Positions 9,356 through 51,055 of a DNA stretch of 64,000 bases are shown here, piece by piece (the stretch's first letter is position 1; every line of letters starts with the position of its first letter). Position numbers and translations under genes: made by a program. The notes under the pieces are model-generated. The model saw only the letters and a program-made list of their open reading frames with translations. It was not told where the DNA came from and did no database searches. The DNA is from Planctomycetia bacterium (lineage in GTDB: Bacteria > Planctomycetota > Planctomycetia > Pirellulales > JACPPG01): contig JACPPG010000039.1 in assembly GCA_016191115.1 (NCBI GenBank), positions 1 through 64,000 on the forward strand. The letters are read 5' to 3'.

Positions 9356-11404
9356 ATGACGATCACCCCGCTCCCGATCCTCGGCCAATGGCCCGACGCC
9401 GGCTACGCCTGCCCGCCGCTTGCGGCTGGGCCGCTCCGCGCGCCGGCCGCGACGCCCTTGCCCATGTCGCGCGAGGAGATGCACGCCCGCGGCTGGGACC
9501 AGGTTGACGTGGTCTTCGTCACCGGCGACGCGTACGTCGATCATCCGAGCTTCGCCATGGCCCTTTTGGGGCGGCTCCTGGAAAGCGAAGGCTTTCGCGT
9601 GGGCATCGTCAGCCAGCCCGACTGGCACACCTGCGACGCCTGGCGGACGTTCGGCCGGCCGCGCCTGTTCTTCGCGATTAGCGCCGGCAACATGGACTCG
9701 ATGATCAATCACTACACCGCCAACCGCAAAGTGCGCAACGACGATGCGTACAGTCCCGGTGGGCGGATCGGCCGGCGACCCGACCGGGCGACGTTGGCCT
9801 ATTGCCAGCGGGCGCGCGAGGCGTATCGCGGCGTGCCGGTCGTGGCCGGCGGCGTCGAGGCTAGCCTGCGGCGCCTCGCGCACTACGACTATTGGAGCGA
9901 CAAGGTCCGCCGCGCGATCATCCTCGACGCCAAGGCCGATCTCGTGGTGTTCGGCATGGGCGAGCGGCCGATTGTCGAGATCGCCCGCCGCCTGGCCGCC
10001 GGCCAGACCGTGCGCGACTTGCGCGACCTGCGAGGCGTCGTCTATCGGTTGGGGGCGAGCGAATCGCCGCCGACCGAAAGCACGCTCAAGCTGCCCAGCT
10101 ACGAGGAGGCCGCTGCCGACCGCTTCGCGTTCGCCGAAATGACGAAGACCTGCCACGTCGAGACCAATCCACACAACGCCCGCCGGCTGGTGCAGTACCA
10201 CGATCGCGAGGCGGTCGTCGCAAATCCGCCGGCGCTGCCGCTGTCGGAAACGGAGATGGACCGCGTCTATGGGCTGCCCTACACGCGGCGGCCGCATCCG
10301 GCCTACGGCCGCGAGCGGATCCCGGCGTACGAAGTGGTGAAGGACTCGGTGCAGATCATGCGCGGCTGCTTCGGTGGCTGCACGTTCTGCTCGATCACGG
10401 CACACGAGGGCCGCATCATTCAGAGCCGCAGCCAGGAATCGGTGCTGGCGGAAGTGCGCGACATGGCCGCCGACCCGCAATTCACCGGCGTGGTGAGCGA
10501 TATCGGCGGCCCCACGGCCAACATGTACCAGATGCGCTGCACCCGGCCCGAGGTCGAGGCGGTCTGCCGGCGGCTGAGCTGCGTTCACCCCACGATCTGC
10601 AAGCTATTGGGCACCGACCACGGTCCACTCGTGCAGTTGATGCGCGAGGCGCGGGCCGAGCCGGGCGTCCGCAAGGTGCTCGTGGCCTCGGGCATTCGCA
10701 TGGACCTGGCACGCCGCAGCCCCGAGTACATGCGCGAACTGGCGACGCATCACGTGGGCGGGCATTTGAAGATCGCGCCGGAGCACACCGATCCCAATGT
10801 GCTGGCGACCATGAAGAAGCCATCGATCGACGATTTCACGGCCTTCGACGCCGAGTTCCGCCGGGCGTCGAAGCGGGCCGGCAAGAAGCAGTACCTGGTG
10901 CCGTACTTCATCGCCAGCCATCCGGCCAGCGACTTGGACGCGATGATCGGCCTGGCGCTATTCTTGAAGCGGAACCACTATCAGCCCGACCAGGTGCAGG
11001 ACTTCATCCCCAGCCCGTTCGACATCGCGGCCTGCATGTACCACACGGGGCTCGATCCGTTCAGCAAGAAGCCCGTCTACGTGGCGAAACACCTGCGCGA
11101 CAGGAAGCTGCAACGGGCGCTACTGCAGTTCTTCAAGGCGGAGAACTACTTCGAGGTGCGGCGCGCGCTCGAGCAAGCGGGCCGGCAAGACCTGATTGGC
11201 AGCGGCTGCGATTGCCTCATCCCCGACAGGCCGCCGAAGGCGGCGCTAGATCGCCGCAGGGCCAGCGCCAGCCGCGAGCTAAGCGAAGCGCGAGACGGCG
11301 ACCACATCCGCGGGAAGCCAGGATCAAGCGGCGCCGGCTACCGGCCCCATCGCAAGACAGCCACGCGACGGCGGAAGGACGAATGTCGAAAGCCAAAGGT
11401 CTAA
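9356..11404 (+). CDS. YgiQ-family radical SAM protein
   Basis: A 682-residue radical S-adenosylmethionine protein of the UPF0313/YgiQ family. The N-terminal domain begins with [13 protein letters not shown], and [21 protein letters not shown] is the conserved B12-binding-like region. The [4Fe-4S]/SAM cysteines are in [10 protein letters not shown], residues 338, 342 and 345. Later blocks [10 protein letters not shown] and [10 protein letters not shown] are typical of the family. The biochemical function of YgiQ proteins is not established. The last roughly ten residues and the stop codon are encoded by a palindromic repeat arm (from 11378), so the C-terminus probably differs from the ancestral one. 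Confidence 0.9.
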
Positions 11405-11507
11405 AGGAATCCGAAGCAGGAAATCCGAAGCAGTTCTTCCAAATTTCGGCATGCGTCGTTTGGGTTTCGTGCTTCTTTAGTTAGACATTTGACTTTCGAC
11501 ATTCGTC
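11378..11507. repeat. GAATGTCGAA inverted-repeat element, gene-less form
   Basis: Arms at 11378-11404 and 11481-11507 are inverted complements at 25 of 27 positions, beginning GACGAATGTCGAAAG. Internal sequence carries two copies of GAAATCCGAAG-like units. The arms match the terminal repeats around the four-helix-bundle gene at 22723-23231, but here only about 76 bases with no gene lie between them. The left arm overlaps the end of the YgiQ gene. Confidence 0.7.
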
Positions 11508-11521
11508 ATTTCGCCGCCCGC

Positions 11522-20030: not shown

Positions 20031-20241
20031 GACTCACCACGGAGTCACGGAGACGCGCCGAGTAGGGGACGGGGGAAGAAAGTTGGCCGTGAATTGACGC
20101 AGATGGTCGCGGATCATATCCAGACCAAAGTATCACGATTCAATCTGCGTACATCCACGCCAATCCGTGGCTGCATTCCTCTTTGTGCATCTTCCCTCTC
20201 TTCCGGCGCGTCTCCGTGCCTCAGTGACTCCGTGGTGACTC
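20031..20241. repeat. CACGGAGTCACGGAGACGCG inverted repeat
   Basis: Outer arms CACCACGGAGTCACGGAGAC (left, about 20035-20060) and GTCTCCGTGCCTCAGTGACT, followed by CCGTGGTG (right, 20204-20241), are largely complementary. Inside them lies a second pair (GACGCAGATGGTCGCGGAT and ATCTGCGTACATCCACGCC). It fills most of the divergent gap between the DUF4432 and cupin genes. Confidence 0.65.
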
Positions 20242-21632: not shown

Positions 21633-21664
21633 GGGTTGGGGGTTGGGGGTTAGGGATTAGGGGG
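21632..21664 (+). promoter_or_regulatory. G-quadruplex-forming tract over a ribosome-binding region
   Basis: Five runs of three to five G separated by TT, TT, TTA and ATTA lie between the stop of the cupin gene and ATG 21670, on the coding strand. The last G-run (GGGGGA) is also the only plausible Shine-Dalgarno sequence for the isomerase gene. Folding would be expected to hide that site. It may alternatively be a simple G-rich minisatellite. Confidence 0.5.
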
Positions 21665-21669
21665 AACCA

Positions 21670-22728
21670 ATGAGTGCGGCACACCTGAACGTGTTTCCAA
21701 AGCTCCACAACGCCGCCTGGCCGGGCGTGGTCGGCAAGGGGGAAGGCTCCGAGCCGCCGATTGAGCTGGACACGATGCTCGACCTGACGGCCGCGGCCGA
21801 GGTCGACGGCGTGCGGTTCGACGGCGTCGATTTGTTTCTCTTCGCGCCGCACGTCGATATCGACTCCTCGGATGATGATCTCAAGCGGCTGGCGGACAAG
21901 GTCCGCTCGCGGAATCTGGTGATCGGCTCGGTCGTGGCGCCGGTCTGGCCTCCCACCGGCGGCGGATCGGCGATGGGGAGCGAGCAGGACCGGCAGAGCT
22001 TCCTGACGCAAGTCCGCAAAGGCTGTCGGATTGCCAAGCGCCTTCGCGAACTGGGCGCCCGGCCCTACGGCGTCGTGCGGATCGACTCGGCCGTCGATCC
22101 GGGCACCTGGGCGCAAGGGGACCGCGACGCCAACAGCCGGCGGATTGCAGACACGTTTCGGCAGGCATGCGGAATTGCCGAGGATCACGGCGAGCGGCTG
22201 GCCGCCGAGGGAGAAATCTGCTGGGGCGGCATGCACAGTTGGAAACGCATGGTGCAGCTTCTGGAGCTGGTCGACCGTCCGAAGTCGCTCGGCTTTCAGG
22301 CCGACATGGCGCACACGCTTCTTTATCTGCTGGGCTATAACGCGCCGGAGGACCGCATCCTGCCGGTGGATTTCGATTGGAAGGACACGGCCGCACTCCA
22401 GCAGGGCTTGAAGACCCTCACGGCCGCCTTGCGCCTCTGGACGATCGACTTCCACGTCGCCCAAAACGACGCGACGGTGCACGGCGCCGGCTCGCACGAT
22501 AAGACGGGCCGCCACTGTCTGCCCAACGACCCGGCCGGCCGCCTCTCAATCGCCCGCGACGCCGGCCACTGGCTGCGCGACGAGCGTGGCGCGCTCACGA
22601 AGCGGATGACGCACATCTGCTGGGACGGCTGCATGTTCCCCAACGCCGTGATGATGAAGCCCCAGACGTGGAACGACATCCTGGGGGCGATGGTAGCGGT
22701 GCGGGACGCGCACGGCTGGCGCGAATGA
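21670..22728 (+). CDS. Sugar phosphate isomerase/epimerase-like TIM-barrel protein
   Basis: A 352-residue cytoplasmic protein of the xylose isomerase-like TIM-barrel superfamily. Supporting pieces are [20 protein letters not shown] near residue 45, [10 protein letters not shown]-like acidic metal-ligand region ([20 protein letters not shown]), [20 protein letters not shown] and a late HVAQND block, which supply the Glu, Asp and His ligands expected for a divalent metal. The substrate is not known. The gene ends CGC GAA TGA, with the last codon and stop inside the left terminal repeat of the downstream inverted-repeat unit. The original C-terminus may therefore have been altered by insertion. 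Confidence 0.75.
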
Positions 22729-23231
22729 CGAAGGACTAAGATCAAATGTCTCAAGAAATCCGAAGCACGAATGACGAAACGGCCGGTGGCGAACGCCGCT
22801 ACGATCTGGTCGAGCGGACCGCGTGCTTTGGTGAATCGACAATCATGTTGGCAAAGCAGTTGCCGACGAACCGGGTAACGGACCAGCTCATCGATCAGCT
22901 TGTGCGGTCAGCGACGAGCATCGGTGCGAACTACTGTGAGGCCGATGACGCCGGCTCCCGAAAGGAATTCTGTTATCGCGTCAGTGTGAGCAAGCGAGAG
23001 GCGCGTGAGGCAATGCACTGGTTGCGCATGATCGCGGCAGCCGTCCCGGAAATGAAGGACCAGGCACGCGAACAATGGCGCGAAGCCAAGGAATTGCATC
23101 TCATTTTGGCCGCCATTCACCGCAAAGTTCGAGACGACCGCGCCGCCAGACCCGCCCACCCAAAGTAGTTCGTCCTTCGGATTTAGACCTTCGGATTTCT
23201 TTAGACATTTGATTTTAGTCCTTCGTCATTC
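22723..23231. mobile_element. Inverted-repeat-bounded unit carrying a four-helix-bundle gene
   Basis: 43-bp termini at 22723-22765 and 23189-23231 are inverted complements at 41 of 43 positions; they begin GAATGACGAAGGACTAA and end AAGAAATCCGAAG. The 509-bp unit contains one gene only. It lies inside a sugar-metabolism operon and provides the stop codon of the upstream gene. No target duplication is visible. Shorter gene-less relatives of the termini occur at 11378-11507 and 50831-50981. No transposase is encoded, so mobility is inferred from the structure. Confidence 0.7.
22746..23168 (+). CDS. Four-helix-bundle protein (S23/Avd-like)
   Basis: A 140-residue, mostly helical basic protein. 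The core begins with YDLVERTACFGESTIMLAKQ and continues VTDQLIDQLVRSATSIGANY, then a central EFCYRVSVSKREAREAMHWL. These are the signature blocks of the four-helix-bundle family first known from 23S rRNA intervening sequences and related to the Avd proteins of diversity-generating retroelements. The family forms pentamers and can bind nucleic acid. The first roughly ten residues (MSQEIRSTNDE) are encoded by the left terminal repeat, making it longer than the usual ~120. No reverse transcriptase or rRNA lies nearby. Its role in this unit is unknown. Confidence 0.8.
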   Translation: MSQEIRSTNDETAGGERRYDLVERTACFGESTIMLAKQLPTNRVTDQLIDQLVRSATSIGANYCEADDAGSRKEFCYRVSVSKREAREAMHWLRMIAAAVPEMKDQAREQWREAKELHLILAAIHRKVRDDRAARPAHPK

Positions 23232-23243
23232 CAGAGGCCCCGC

Positions 23244-24401
23244 ATGTCCACCCCTCTCAACATCGGCATGATCGGCTACGGCTTCATGGGCCGGGCCCAC
23301 TCGAACGCTTATCGGCAGGTCAGCCAGTTTTACAAGCTCGAGCATCGCCCGGTCTTGAAGGCCTGTTGCGCACGCAATGCCGAGAAAATCAAGGCCTTCG
23401 CCGACAACTGGGGCTACGAGTCGTACGAAACCGACTGGCGAAAGCTGATCGACCGCAAGGACATCGACGTGATCGACATCGGCAGCCCCAACAACACGCA
23501 TCGCGAGATCGTGCTGGCCGCGGCCGAGCGGGGCAAGATGATCCTCTGCGAGAAGCCGCTGGCGATGAACGCCGCCGAGGCCGAGGAAATGTGCAAGGCC
23601 GTGGAGAAGGCGGGCGTGGCGAACATGGTGTGGTTCAACTATCGCCGCGTGCCGGCCATTTCGCTCGCTCGGCAGGTGGTCGACGAGGGGCGGATCGGCC
23701 GGCCGTTCCACTACCGCGCGACCTACCTGCAGGACTGGACGATCGCCGAGGACGTGCCGCAGGGCGGCGCCGCGCTGTGGCGGCTCGATCTGGCCGTGGC
23801 CGGCTCGGGCGTGACCGGCGACTTGCTCGCTCATTCGATCGACACCGCCGAGTGGCTCAACGGGCCGATCCGCCGCGTCACCGCCGCGACCGAGACCTTC
23901 GTCAAGGAGCGGATGCACGTCGAGACCGGCAAAAAGCAATCGGTCGGCATCGACGACGCCTGCATGTTCCTGGCCGTATTCGCCAACGGGTCGATGGGCA
24001 CGTTCGAAAGCACGCGCTACGCCCGCGGCCGCAAGAACTACAACACGTTCGAGCTTAACGGCGAGCGGGGTAGCGTGTTCTTCGATCTCGAGGACCCGCA
24101 CATCCTGCAATATTTCAAGCACGCCGATCCCAAGACGGGCGCGAAGATCGAAAGCCATCTCACCGGCTGGCAGCGGATCAACGTCACCAATTTCGAGCAC
24201 CCGTACATGGACAAGTGGTGGGTGCCCGGCTGCACGATCGGCTACGAGCACACGTTCACGAACGCCCTGGCTGATTTCCTCATCGGGCTGCAGACGGGCA
24301 AGCCGGCGCAGCCCGACTTCCGCTCCGGCCTGCGGACGCAAAAAGTGTGTGACGCGGTGTTGGCGAGCGGAAAAAGCGGCCGCTGGGTCGACATCGAGTG
24401 A
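23244..24401 (+). CDS. Gfo/Idh/MocA-family oxidoreductase
   Basis: A 385-residue NAD(P)-dependent dehydrogenase for sugars or inositols. The Rossmann domain starts [20 protein letters not shown] (residues 5-24), and the conserved catalytic Lys is in [17 protein letters not shown] near residue 100. The C-terminal alpha/beta domain includes [17 protein letters not shown] with the expected Asp and His. It ends with a planctomycete-like tail. It begins 13 bases after the right terminus of the inverted-repeat unit and presumably formed one operon with the isomerase upstream before that insertion. A clear intrinsic terminator follows. Confidence 0.9.
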
Positions 24402-50830: not shown

Positions 50831-50981
50831 GAATGTCGAATGTCTAAATCCGAATGTCAAAAGAAGCACGAAATCCGAAATCCGAAGCGTCGCGAGGAGG
50901 CAGTAGCGCGGTGCCAACCGCCCTTCCGTCATTCGAGCCGTCGAATTTTTTTTGCCATTCAAGCTTCGACATTCGTCATTC
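50831..50981. repeat. GAATGTCGAA inverted-repeat element, gene-less form
   Basis: It begins GAATGTCGAATGTCTAAATC and contains two GAAATCCGAA units; it ends TTCGACATTCGTCATTC. Termini and internal units match those of the four-helix-bundle unit at 22723-23231, but no gene is enclosed. A fragment of the CTTGGCG repeat family follows at 50990-51020. Confidence 0.6.
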
Positions 50982-51055
50982 TTTCTTGCCTTCTTGGCGT
51001 CCTTGGCGCCCTGGCGGTTCGTCGTTTTGAGTCATCGCGCGCCGGCCGGGGCGCC

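Follow-up and report, generated by a model that had tools for sequence, protein, structure and literature searches.

Introduction

The described systems closest to the locus analysed here are the intervening sequences (IVSs) of rRNA genes, in which the S23/IVP protein family was discovered, and arrays of intergenic heptamers, which in cyanobacteria go by the name of STRRs. In Coxiella, three tandem GACAGAT heptads, strain-variable in number, are reported to precede the start of the S23 protein gene, and the IVS is reported to be cut out by RNase III; the S23 protein of X. campestris is described in the same source as a homopentamer (PMC4990558). S23-type ORFs are also reported inside rRNA insertions of CPR bacteria (PMC11270868). 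Heptad arrays, including inverted heptad pairs in Xanthomonas, are likewise on record (PMC4692102, PMC4679880). In Rehm et al. (2015), GGGAATC-type repeats are described for Xanthomonas and Nostoc, with 70 and 75 convergent inverted pairs in two Xanthomonas genomes and few in Nostoc PCC7120, none of whose repeats lies on plasmids; the repeats are there considered generally not associated with mobile elements, and the term S23 is absent from the main text (PMC4692102). X. campestris encodes an S23 protein of known structure (2gsc).

The unit described here lies in the window, i.e. the whole 64,000-nucleotide stretch of planctomycete DNA that was analysed. It resembles 23S rRNA IVSs such as that of Coxiella in length (about 430-510 nt), in its terminal inverted repeats around an S23-family ORF, and in the long RNA stem that these can form; the link to rRNA IVSs drawn in the original prediction is thus borne out in anatomy. 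Unlike rRNA IVSs, such units occur in operon junctions and on plasmids, their heptads form both arms, and gene-less copies are abundant; the window unit is not itself an rRNA IVS, because it lies at an isomerase/oxidoreductase junction and not in an rRNA gene. The free-standing S23 genes are under purifying selection, in contrast to the reductive evolution reported for the Coxiella protein (PMC4990558). Intergenic tandem heptads are shared with the cyanobacterial STRRs and with the Xanthomonas/Nostoc repeats. The gene-less copies are short, palindromic, multicopy and intergenic, as are MITEs and REPINs, but they resemble an S23-only unit rather than a transposase element, their words are degenerate with a 7-nt period, and Y1 transposase loci lack such arms. 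Finally, the predicted four-helix-bundle fold would be shared with Avd of diversity-generating retroelements, whereas no reverse transcriptase was noticed among the immediate neighbours of the window copy and the Avd family profile was not matched at its cut-off. The original prediction had suggested that a free-standing unit of this kind may be an undescribed passenger or mobilisation system; among the papers listed in searches of the open literature, we found none describing it as free-standing, and recognised none that connects heptad arms with S23 genes located elsewhere than in rRNA. We propose, with a probability of roughly 0.7, that the unit is a mobile, transposase-less single-gene palindromic element, a free-standing relative of rRNA IVSs that has given rise to MITE-like derivatives.

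Anatomy of the window unit

The unit occupies 509 bp between a xylose-isomerase-like TIM-barrel gene (21670-22728, forward strand; PF01261) and a Gfo/Idh/MocA oxidoreductase gene (23244-24401, forward strand; PF01408) of its host operon, in a 6.03-Mb genome (G000, contig C76). As predicted, the S23 gene is flanked by inverted arms (22723-22765 on the left, 23189-23231 on the right) with 41/43 matching positions, whereas no 43-mer inverted repeat exceeded 30 matches when this 1.5 kb region was shuffled 20 times; a repeat search of the window extends the arms to 56 nt at 86% complementarity (22723-22778 and 23176-23231). Both arms are built of degenerate heptads (TTCGTCA TTCGGAT TTAGACA and so on) in inverted arrangement, the left arm mirroring the right. 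The original prediction did not mention this heptad structure, its generality, or the nesting and the cyanobacterial 5-bp duplications described below. On the forward strand, the left arm reads ATGACGA AGGACTA AGATCAA ATGTCTC AAGA AATCCGA AGCACGA ATGACGA, and the right arm TTCGGAT TTAGACC TTCGGAT TTCT TTAGACA TTTGATT TTAGTCC TTCGTCA TTC. Coordinates confirm that the left arm contributes to both adjoining reading frames, as it holds the isomerase stop codon (TGA, 22726-22728) together with the start and first codons of the S23 gene (22746-23168, forward strand), which encodes 140 aa of a divergent SIGANYCEADDAGS subfamily. The inverted repeats around the ORF are able to form a stem, as in an IVS, and the unit as RNA folds better than all 100 shuffles (z -8.1); the window gave no Rfam match at gathering scores. 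Neither a transposase nor a nuclease or integrase was found in the unit, and the search for a trans-acting enzyme covered one family (Y1). Visual inspection of the window copy revealed no target duplication, in agreement with the original prediction. A crude motif scan, which is a weak test, found no 23S rRNA in the loci scanned. At the other junction of the host operon, between a cupin-like gene and the isomerase gene, a one-sided heptad array of GGGTTGG/GGGTTAG words can be recognised by eye (21633-21669, forward strand), perhaps a remnant of another such element.

The encoded protein is a member of the S23/IVP family, matching PF05635 at 45.3 bits (cut-off 33.8, E 1e-11) and TIGR02436 at 61.8 bits (cut-off 24). 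The predicted monomer (pLDDT 88.8, 45 aligned sequences) places helices at 22-38, 43-67, 72-99 and 101-134, a four-helix bundle like those of the solved S23 proteins 2rld and 2gsc, which were the top Foldseek matches of the model (best E 2.2e-4 for 2rld; TMt 0.81-0.85 and E 0.008 or worse for 2gsc). The Avd structures 4dwl and 8ub7 matched more weakly than the S23 structures (E above 0.1); with the Avd profile NF033474, the window protein was not listed at E 0.001, and two relatives scored 29.7 and 29.8 bits against a cut-off of 80. Selection on S23 is purifying, with a median dN/dS of 0.107 and values below 1 in 37/37 usable pairs (finite dS above 0.1, saturated or tiny dS left out), although the pairs share sequences and are not independent; a value for the window and G003 genes was discarded because the extracted sequence was out of frame (37% identity). 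One query of a phage collection found no S23.

Heptad arms around S23 genes

We examined 33 S23 loci from the host genome and its relatives. An inverted repeat above all 20 shuffles is present at 30, the exceptions being L033 (at a contig edge), L040 and L002; a lag of 7 or 14 was the best among lags 3-14 at 28/33 loci upstream and 29/33 downstream. Y1-transposase control loci also have inverted repeats above shuffles (23/32), but a lag of 7 or 14 was best at only 4/32 upstream and 2/32 downstream (Fisher 3e-9 and 7e-12 for the respective comparisons with S23). The host genome encodes three other S23 genes, two of which have heptad arms of different words (AGTGGTC-like at L001, AGAGGCC-like at L003); the third, L002, shows ATTTGAGATC-like words by eye and was negative in both tests.

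A scan with the window subfamily returned at least 535 relatives among 579 stretches, of which the best 80, a set biased to that subfamily, were analysed. These best 80 of at least 535 come from Planctomycetota, Verrucomicrobiota, Patescibacteria and other phyla; inverted repeats exceed all 20 shuffles at 78/80, a lag of 7 or 14 is best at 63/80 and 54/80, and the word period, where callable, is 7 in 58/72 and 9 in 14/72. For further S23 loci from 36 genomes not labelled planctomycete (28 of 30 analysed), the corresponding counts are 22/28 for inverted repeats above shuffles and, for lag 7 or 14, 18/28 upstream and 19/28 downstream. Inverted repeats above shuffles were also present at all 12 cyanobacterial plasmid S23 loci examined, with arm words such as AGTAGGG, CCCCAAT, GTGTAGG and AAAAGTA. 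The design of an S23 gene between heptad arms therefore recurs in Verrucomicrobiota, Patescibacteria, Cyanobacteriota and others.

Within one set of genomes, the G+C content of the words differs by S23 subfamily: 0.60 for the mainstream (n=30), 0.33 for the window-like (n=7) and 0.37 for a third subfamily (n=14). Mainstream words are distinct in G+C from those of either other subfamily (p about 5e-4 in each case), and any word-protein specificity is only coarse, because no difference is seen between the window-like and third subfamilies (p 0.88); the association may reflect recognition or joint inheritance. S23 genes are sense to both neighbours in 60/72 neighbourhoods (44/52 plus 16/20) versus 7/16 for Y1, counting only neighbourhoods with both neighbours on one strand and taking strands crudely from the longest stop-to-stop frames (10/80 and 2/33 not callable). 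Some of the cyanobacterial plasmid copies are antisense to both neighbours, and heptad number differs between strains (L296 vs L297; L298 vs L310). By eye, some operon junctions shared between genomes seem to be occupied by S23 genes that differ both in subfamily and in words (L001/L121, L107/L111/L120 and L016/L114), as if such junctions were recurrent targets. One 3.8-Mb genome (G061, that of WOR-3 locus L141) contains 31 PF05635 matches, including a group of five in roughly 16 kb of contig C109.

Gene-less copies and nesting

The terminal pattern TTHGACWTTCGWCATTC, with at most 2 mismatches, gave 264 matches (144+120) in the 6.03-Mb genome and 1 (0+1) for the reversed-pattern control, with several matches per copy; a covariance model places the gene-less family at no fewer than 32 distinct positions, so that the termini are not confined to the S23 site. 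Two of these at least 32 places are the relatives predicted within the window at 11378-11507 and 50831-50981, both of which are real; the first is placed here at 11374-11511 and the second as given (both forward strand). Covariance scanning (model R1, up to 56 candidates scored per genome, palindromes matching both strands) detected the family in 29/57 genomes. S23 is present in 28 of these 29 versus 10 of the other 28, with a p of 6e-7 that overstates independence because related genomes share ancestry.

The consensus of 16 aligned gene-less copies contains ATGTCTAAAGAAATCCGAA, which translates as MSKEIR, compared with MSQEIR at the start of the window S23 protein. We read this S23 start context as a sign of descent by internal deletion, with the caveat that words of the start context are also present in the mirrored right arm. 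Arms match no better within copies than between them (p 0.22), so that selection for pairing is not visible in the gene-less copies. As in MITEs, these are multicopy, short inverted-repeat units; the target-site duplication of MITEs was not seen, as the flanks of 35 planctomycete copies, with boundaries drawn by pattern and by eye, show no excess of direct repeats (mean shared stretch 3.03 vs 3.24 permuted). No transposase-bearing parent with the same ends was found in the comparison with Y1 loci.

Nine of the 35 gene-less copies are bracketed by a further palindrome of CCACGGAG or CCAAGG words, with 0-18 nt separating copy and outer arm at either end; ten outer palindromes were significant, one of which (L058) was counted as chance. 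The idea that all CCACGGAG palindromes contain a second one was rejected by measurement. The survey comprised 30 stretches, 9 chosen for a known heptad copy and 21 for CCACGGAG words alone; among these 21 (one in the window), 13 have both arms, and 4 of the 13 hold at least 3 heptad words. A significant inner palindrome (p 0.01 or less) was present in 5/12 two-armed stretches long enough to test, and one CCACGGAG palindrome (L349) holds the GxxExxY gene of the host genome. Insertion into the middles of palindromes would explain both the nesting and the placing of IVSs in rRNA helices; other explanations, such as instability of palindromes that lack a spacer, are possible. Two further arrangements were seen in the window itself. 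At 20034-20239, CCACGGAG-type outer arms enclose GCGGATGGAC-like words of about 11 nt, with an inner palindrome at p 0.015 and no heptads of the window type; at 50982-51020, CTTGGCGTCCTTGGCGCCCTGGCGG 9-nt words directly follow the second gene-less copy.

Residence in the host operon

Isomerase junctions were compared in 30 of 42 matching genomes, plus G019 and G022. A window-type S23 gene occupies the isomerase/Gfo junction in G000 and G003 (same genus) and in G036, G019 and G022 (other families), and follows the isomerase gene in G048; G053, from another family, has an S23 of a different subfamily with AGGGGTT-type words at this junction. Gaps of 54-114 bp, with no S23, are found in G056, G017, G054, G021 and G042. 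G002, again of the same genus, has a 205-bp gap with no S23 and with end-like remnants, and the junction of G001 breaks off in another sequence; the remaining junctions have longer gaps, another insert (GxxExxY in G031), or no Gfo gene in the stretch examined. The comparison with related genomes is thus mixed, and qualifies the original prediction of an inserted, mobile unit. Its general part stands, in that the termini occur genome-wide, the family has gene-bearing and gene-less members, and S23 palindromic units are present or absent at matching sites of cyanobacterial plasmids (see below). Its application to the window copy does not: a fresh insertion was rejected and the copy read as an old resident, because S23 of the same subfamily occupies the same junction in several families.

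Of the best 80 of at least 535 relatives, 16/80 belong to this operon, with six located between the cupin and isomerase genes and ten downstream of the isomerase gene, and for 64/80 no operon gene was found in the stretch examined. All 21 operon copies included in an S23 tree (stop codons replaced by X in 9/80 loci, mostly near the ends of matched stretches and once internally, in L194) fall in one 26-row cluster of weak support (55/75); the best tree has 4 changes between the two junctions, one of which is forced by well-supported branches. Given the single cluster and the junction changes, the lineage appears to have resided long in the operon and to have switched junctions within it.

Clustering of this kind is the pattern expected of a resident gene, and we count it against mobility. 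A resident S23 would serve the host, with the arms acting as regulatory hairpins for mRNA processing rather than as ends of anything mobile; occupation of one junction in five genomes by one subfamily, the 16 operon loci, purifying selection and the strong RNA fold are all compatible with this. We nevertheless regard it as improbable, given that 6 of the 16 operon loci sit at the other junction, that four-fifths of the best 80 loci have no operon gene in the stretch, that five genomes have short junctions with no S23 and G053 has another subfamily and other words, and that gene-less copies are spread across the genome while plasmids form empty and filled pairs.

Empty and filled sites on cyanobacterial plasmids

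Evidence for mobility of whole units comes from matching plasmids. Site A is filled in plasmids of Trichormus and Scytonema (L298/L310) and empty in those of Nostoc linckia, Tolypothrix, N. carneum and Aulosira (L304-L307; four of six matches examined), which have 97.4-97.8% backbone identity to L298. The empty site reads AAAAAGTAATTAACAAAT and the filled site AAAAAGTAAT-AAATCAG...TTCTTCTTT-GTAATTAACAAAT, with GTAAT on both sides. More distant plasmids carry a truncated copy (Nostoc, L308) and a gene-less palindrome (Brasilonema, L309), and because such elements lie at the same place, precise loss is as possible as gain. Site D1 is filled in three Nostoc plasmids (L317/L319/L320) and lacks the unit in two (L299/L318); one more has another insert. 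TTCTA flanks both sides in L317 and L320, whereas L319 has TTCTG on the right, which leaves the right copy one target base short; owing to the resemblance between target and element end, the boundary on the right is uncertain. In one of the three filled plasmids, the S23 gene is interrupted by a gene-less copy, and the nested insertion in L320 shows no duplication. One plasmid has another S23 element, with AAAGGGG-type words, at the adjacent junction of this plasmid operon (Site D2), between imperfect TAATG/TTATG; for Sites B and C, relatives that lack the unit exist, with no readable duplication. The Site A and D1 elements belong to one family and align end to end, with similarity stopping at the ends. 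Since closely matching plasmids are empty or filled, whole units come or go, with the direction at Site A unsettled.

These sites also bear on a second alternative, namely spread through RNA, in which a reverse transcriptase acting in trans would copy the hairpin once excised, with S23 as an Avd-like partner. The fold in common with Avd, the sub-cut-off NF033474 matches of two relatives, the sense bias of S23 genes and the reported RNase III excision of the Coxiella IVS (PMC4990558) would accord with such spread. However, the 5-bp duplications suggest that DNA was cut in a staggered fashion, some plasmid copies are antisense, no reverse transcriptase is annotated in 12 plasmid neighbourhoods, and the Avd matches are far below cut-off; we therefore consider RNA-level spread unlikely.

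Other S23 inserts were noted in plasmid-borne CRISPR loci. In L302 and L303, an S23 gene lies between cas2 and cas1, an insert absent in L314 and L315; in L316, an S23 gene lies between cas10 and a cmr3-like gene.

Proposed mechanism

Under the preferred reading, a mobile palindromic element that encodes S23 alone, the unit would most likely move as DNA, leaving a 5-bp duplication (supported at two sites) and depending on an enzyme supplied in trans. S23, probably an oligomer by homology, would bind the heptad arms of its own unit and recruit the cutting and joining enzyme; the arms could pair as a long hairpin, and the unit would mostly be transcribed in sense from the host operon. MITE-like copies, still open to mobilisation, would arise by internal deletion, and insertion would favour gene junctions and perhaps the middles of other palindromes. 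Besides the lack of a mobility enzyme in the unit and the small number of readable duplications, the antisense plasmid copies and the few inverted pairs reported for Nostoc PCC7120 (PMC4692102) speak against this reading.

If an enzyme acts in trans, one candidate is a Y1 transposase (RAYT) that moves REPIN-like palindromes, with S23 as an accidental passenger. Y1_Tnp genes are present in 43/57 genomes, and inverted repeats surround most Y1 loci, as noted above, but the Y1 flanks are not heptad arrays, four exact arm words are absent from all three Y1 loci of the host genome, and S23 sits inside such arms regularly rather than sporadically. By these tests the window unit is not a REPIN, and RAYT mobilisation was rejected as the leading reading on the periodicity of the Y1 flanks. 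To our knowledge, 5-bp duplications are not expected of Y1 enzymes, which we also count against this candidate; we give it little credence. Least probable is that the heptads are slippage-prone simple repeats (STRRs) in the incidental company of S23, for although heptad number varies between strains and arrays with no S23 are abundant, both in the genomes studied here and as described in PMC4692102, the S23 association far exceeds that of the control loci and extends across phyla, the arrays are inverted, word composition differs by S23 subfamily, and whole units are present or absent.

A broader proposal, which we regard as possible but doubtful, is that the single-gene palindromic element represents a new class of mobile DNA, characterized by: (i) the lack of a catalytic gene, (ii) arms whose defining features are mirror symmetry and a 7-nt period instead of a fixed sequence, (iii) S23 as a word-reading mobility protein, and (iv) targeting of gene junctions and palindrome centres. 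Such a class might include rRNA IVSs, cyanobacterial heptamer repeats and Xanthomonas inverted heptad pairs as members or relics, with GxxExxY palindromes of 8-11-nt words as a parallel class. If the preferred reading holds, it would already place the S23/IVP family, whose function has been unknown ever since the rRNA IVSs in which it was discovered, in a general genomic context, and would account for how the degenerate heptamer repeats of cyanobacteria and Xanthomonas arose. A mobile unit that has no recognisable transposase and whose arms keep their period rather than their sequence poses a testable puzzle, for which the near-identical empty and filled plasmids are a ready experimental system.

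Parallel GxxExxY elements

GxxExxY (PDDEXK_3, PF13366) genes occur in 34/57 genomes (L232-L261, and L349 on contig C42 of the host genome). Of 30 loci, 26 were analysed; 24/26 lie in inverted repeats above shuffles, and lags of 8-11 were best in 16/26 upstream and 17/26 downstream. These loci are a parallel kind of single-gene palindromic element. The insert of this type mentioned above for G031 (L231/L237) is a GxxExxY gene with GCCAAGGAC-type 9-nt arms, located in the isomerase/Gfo junction.
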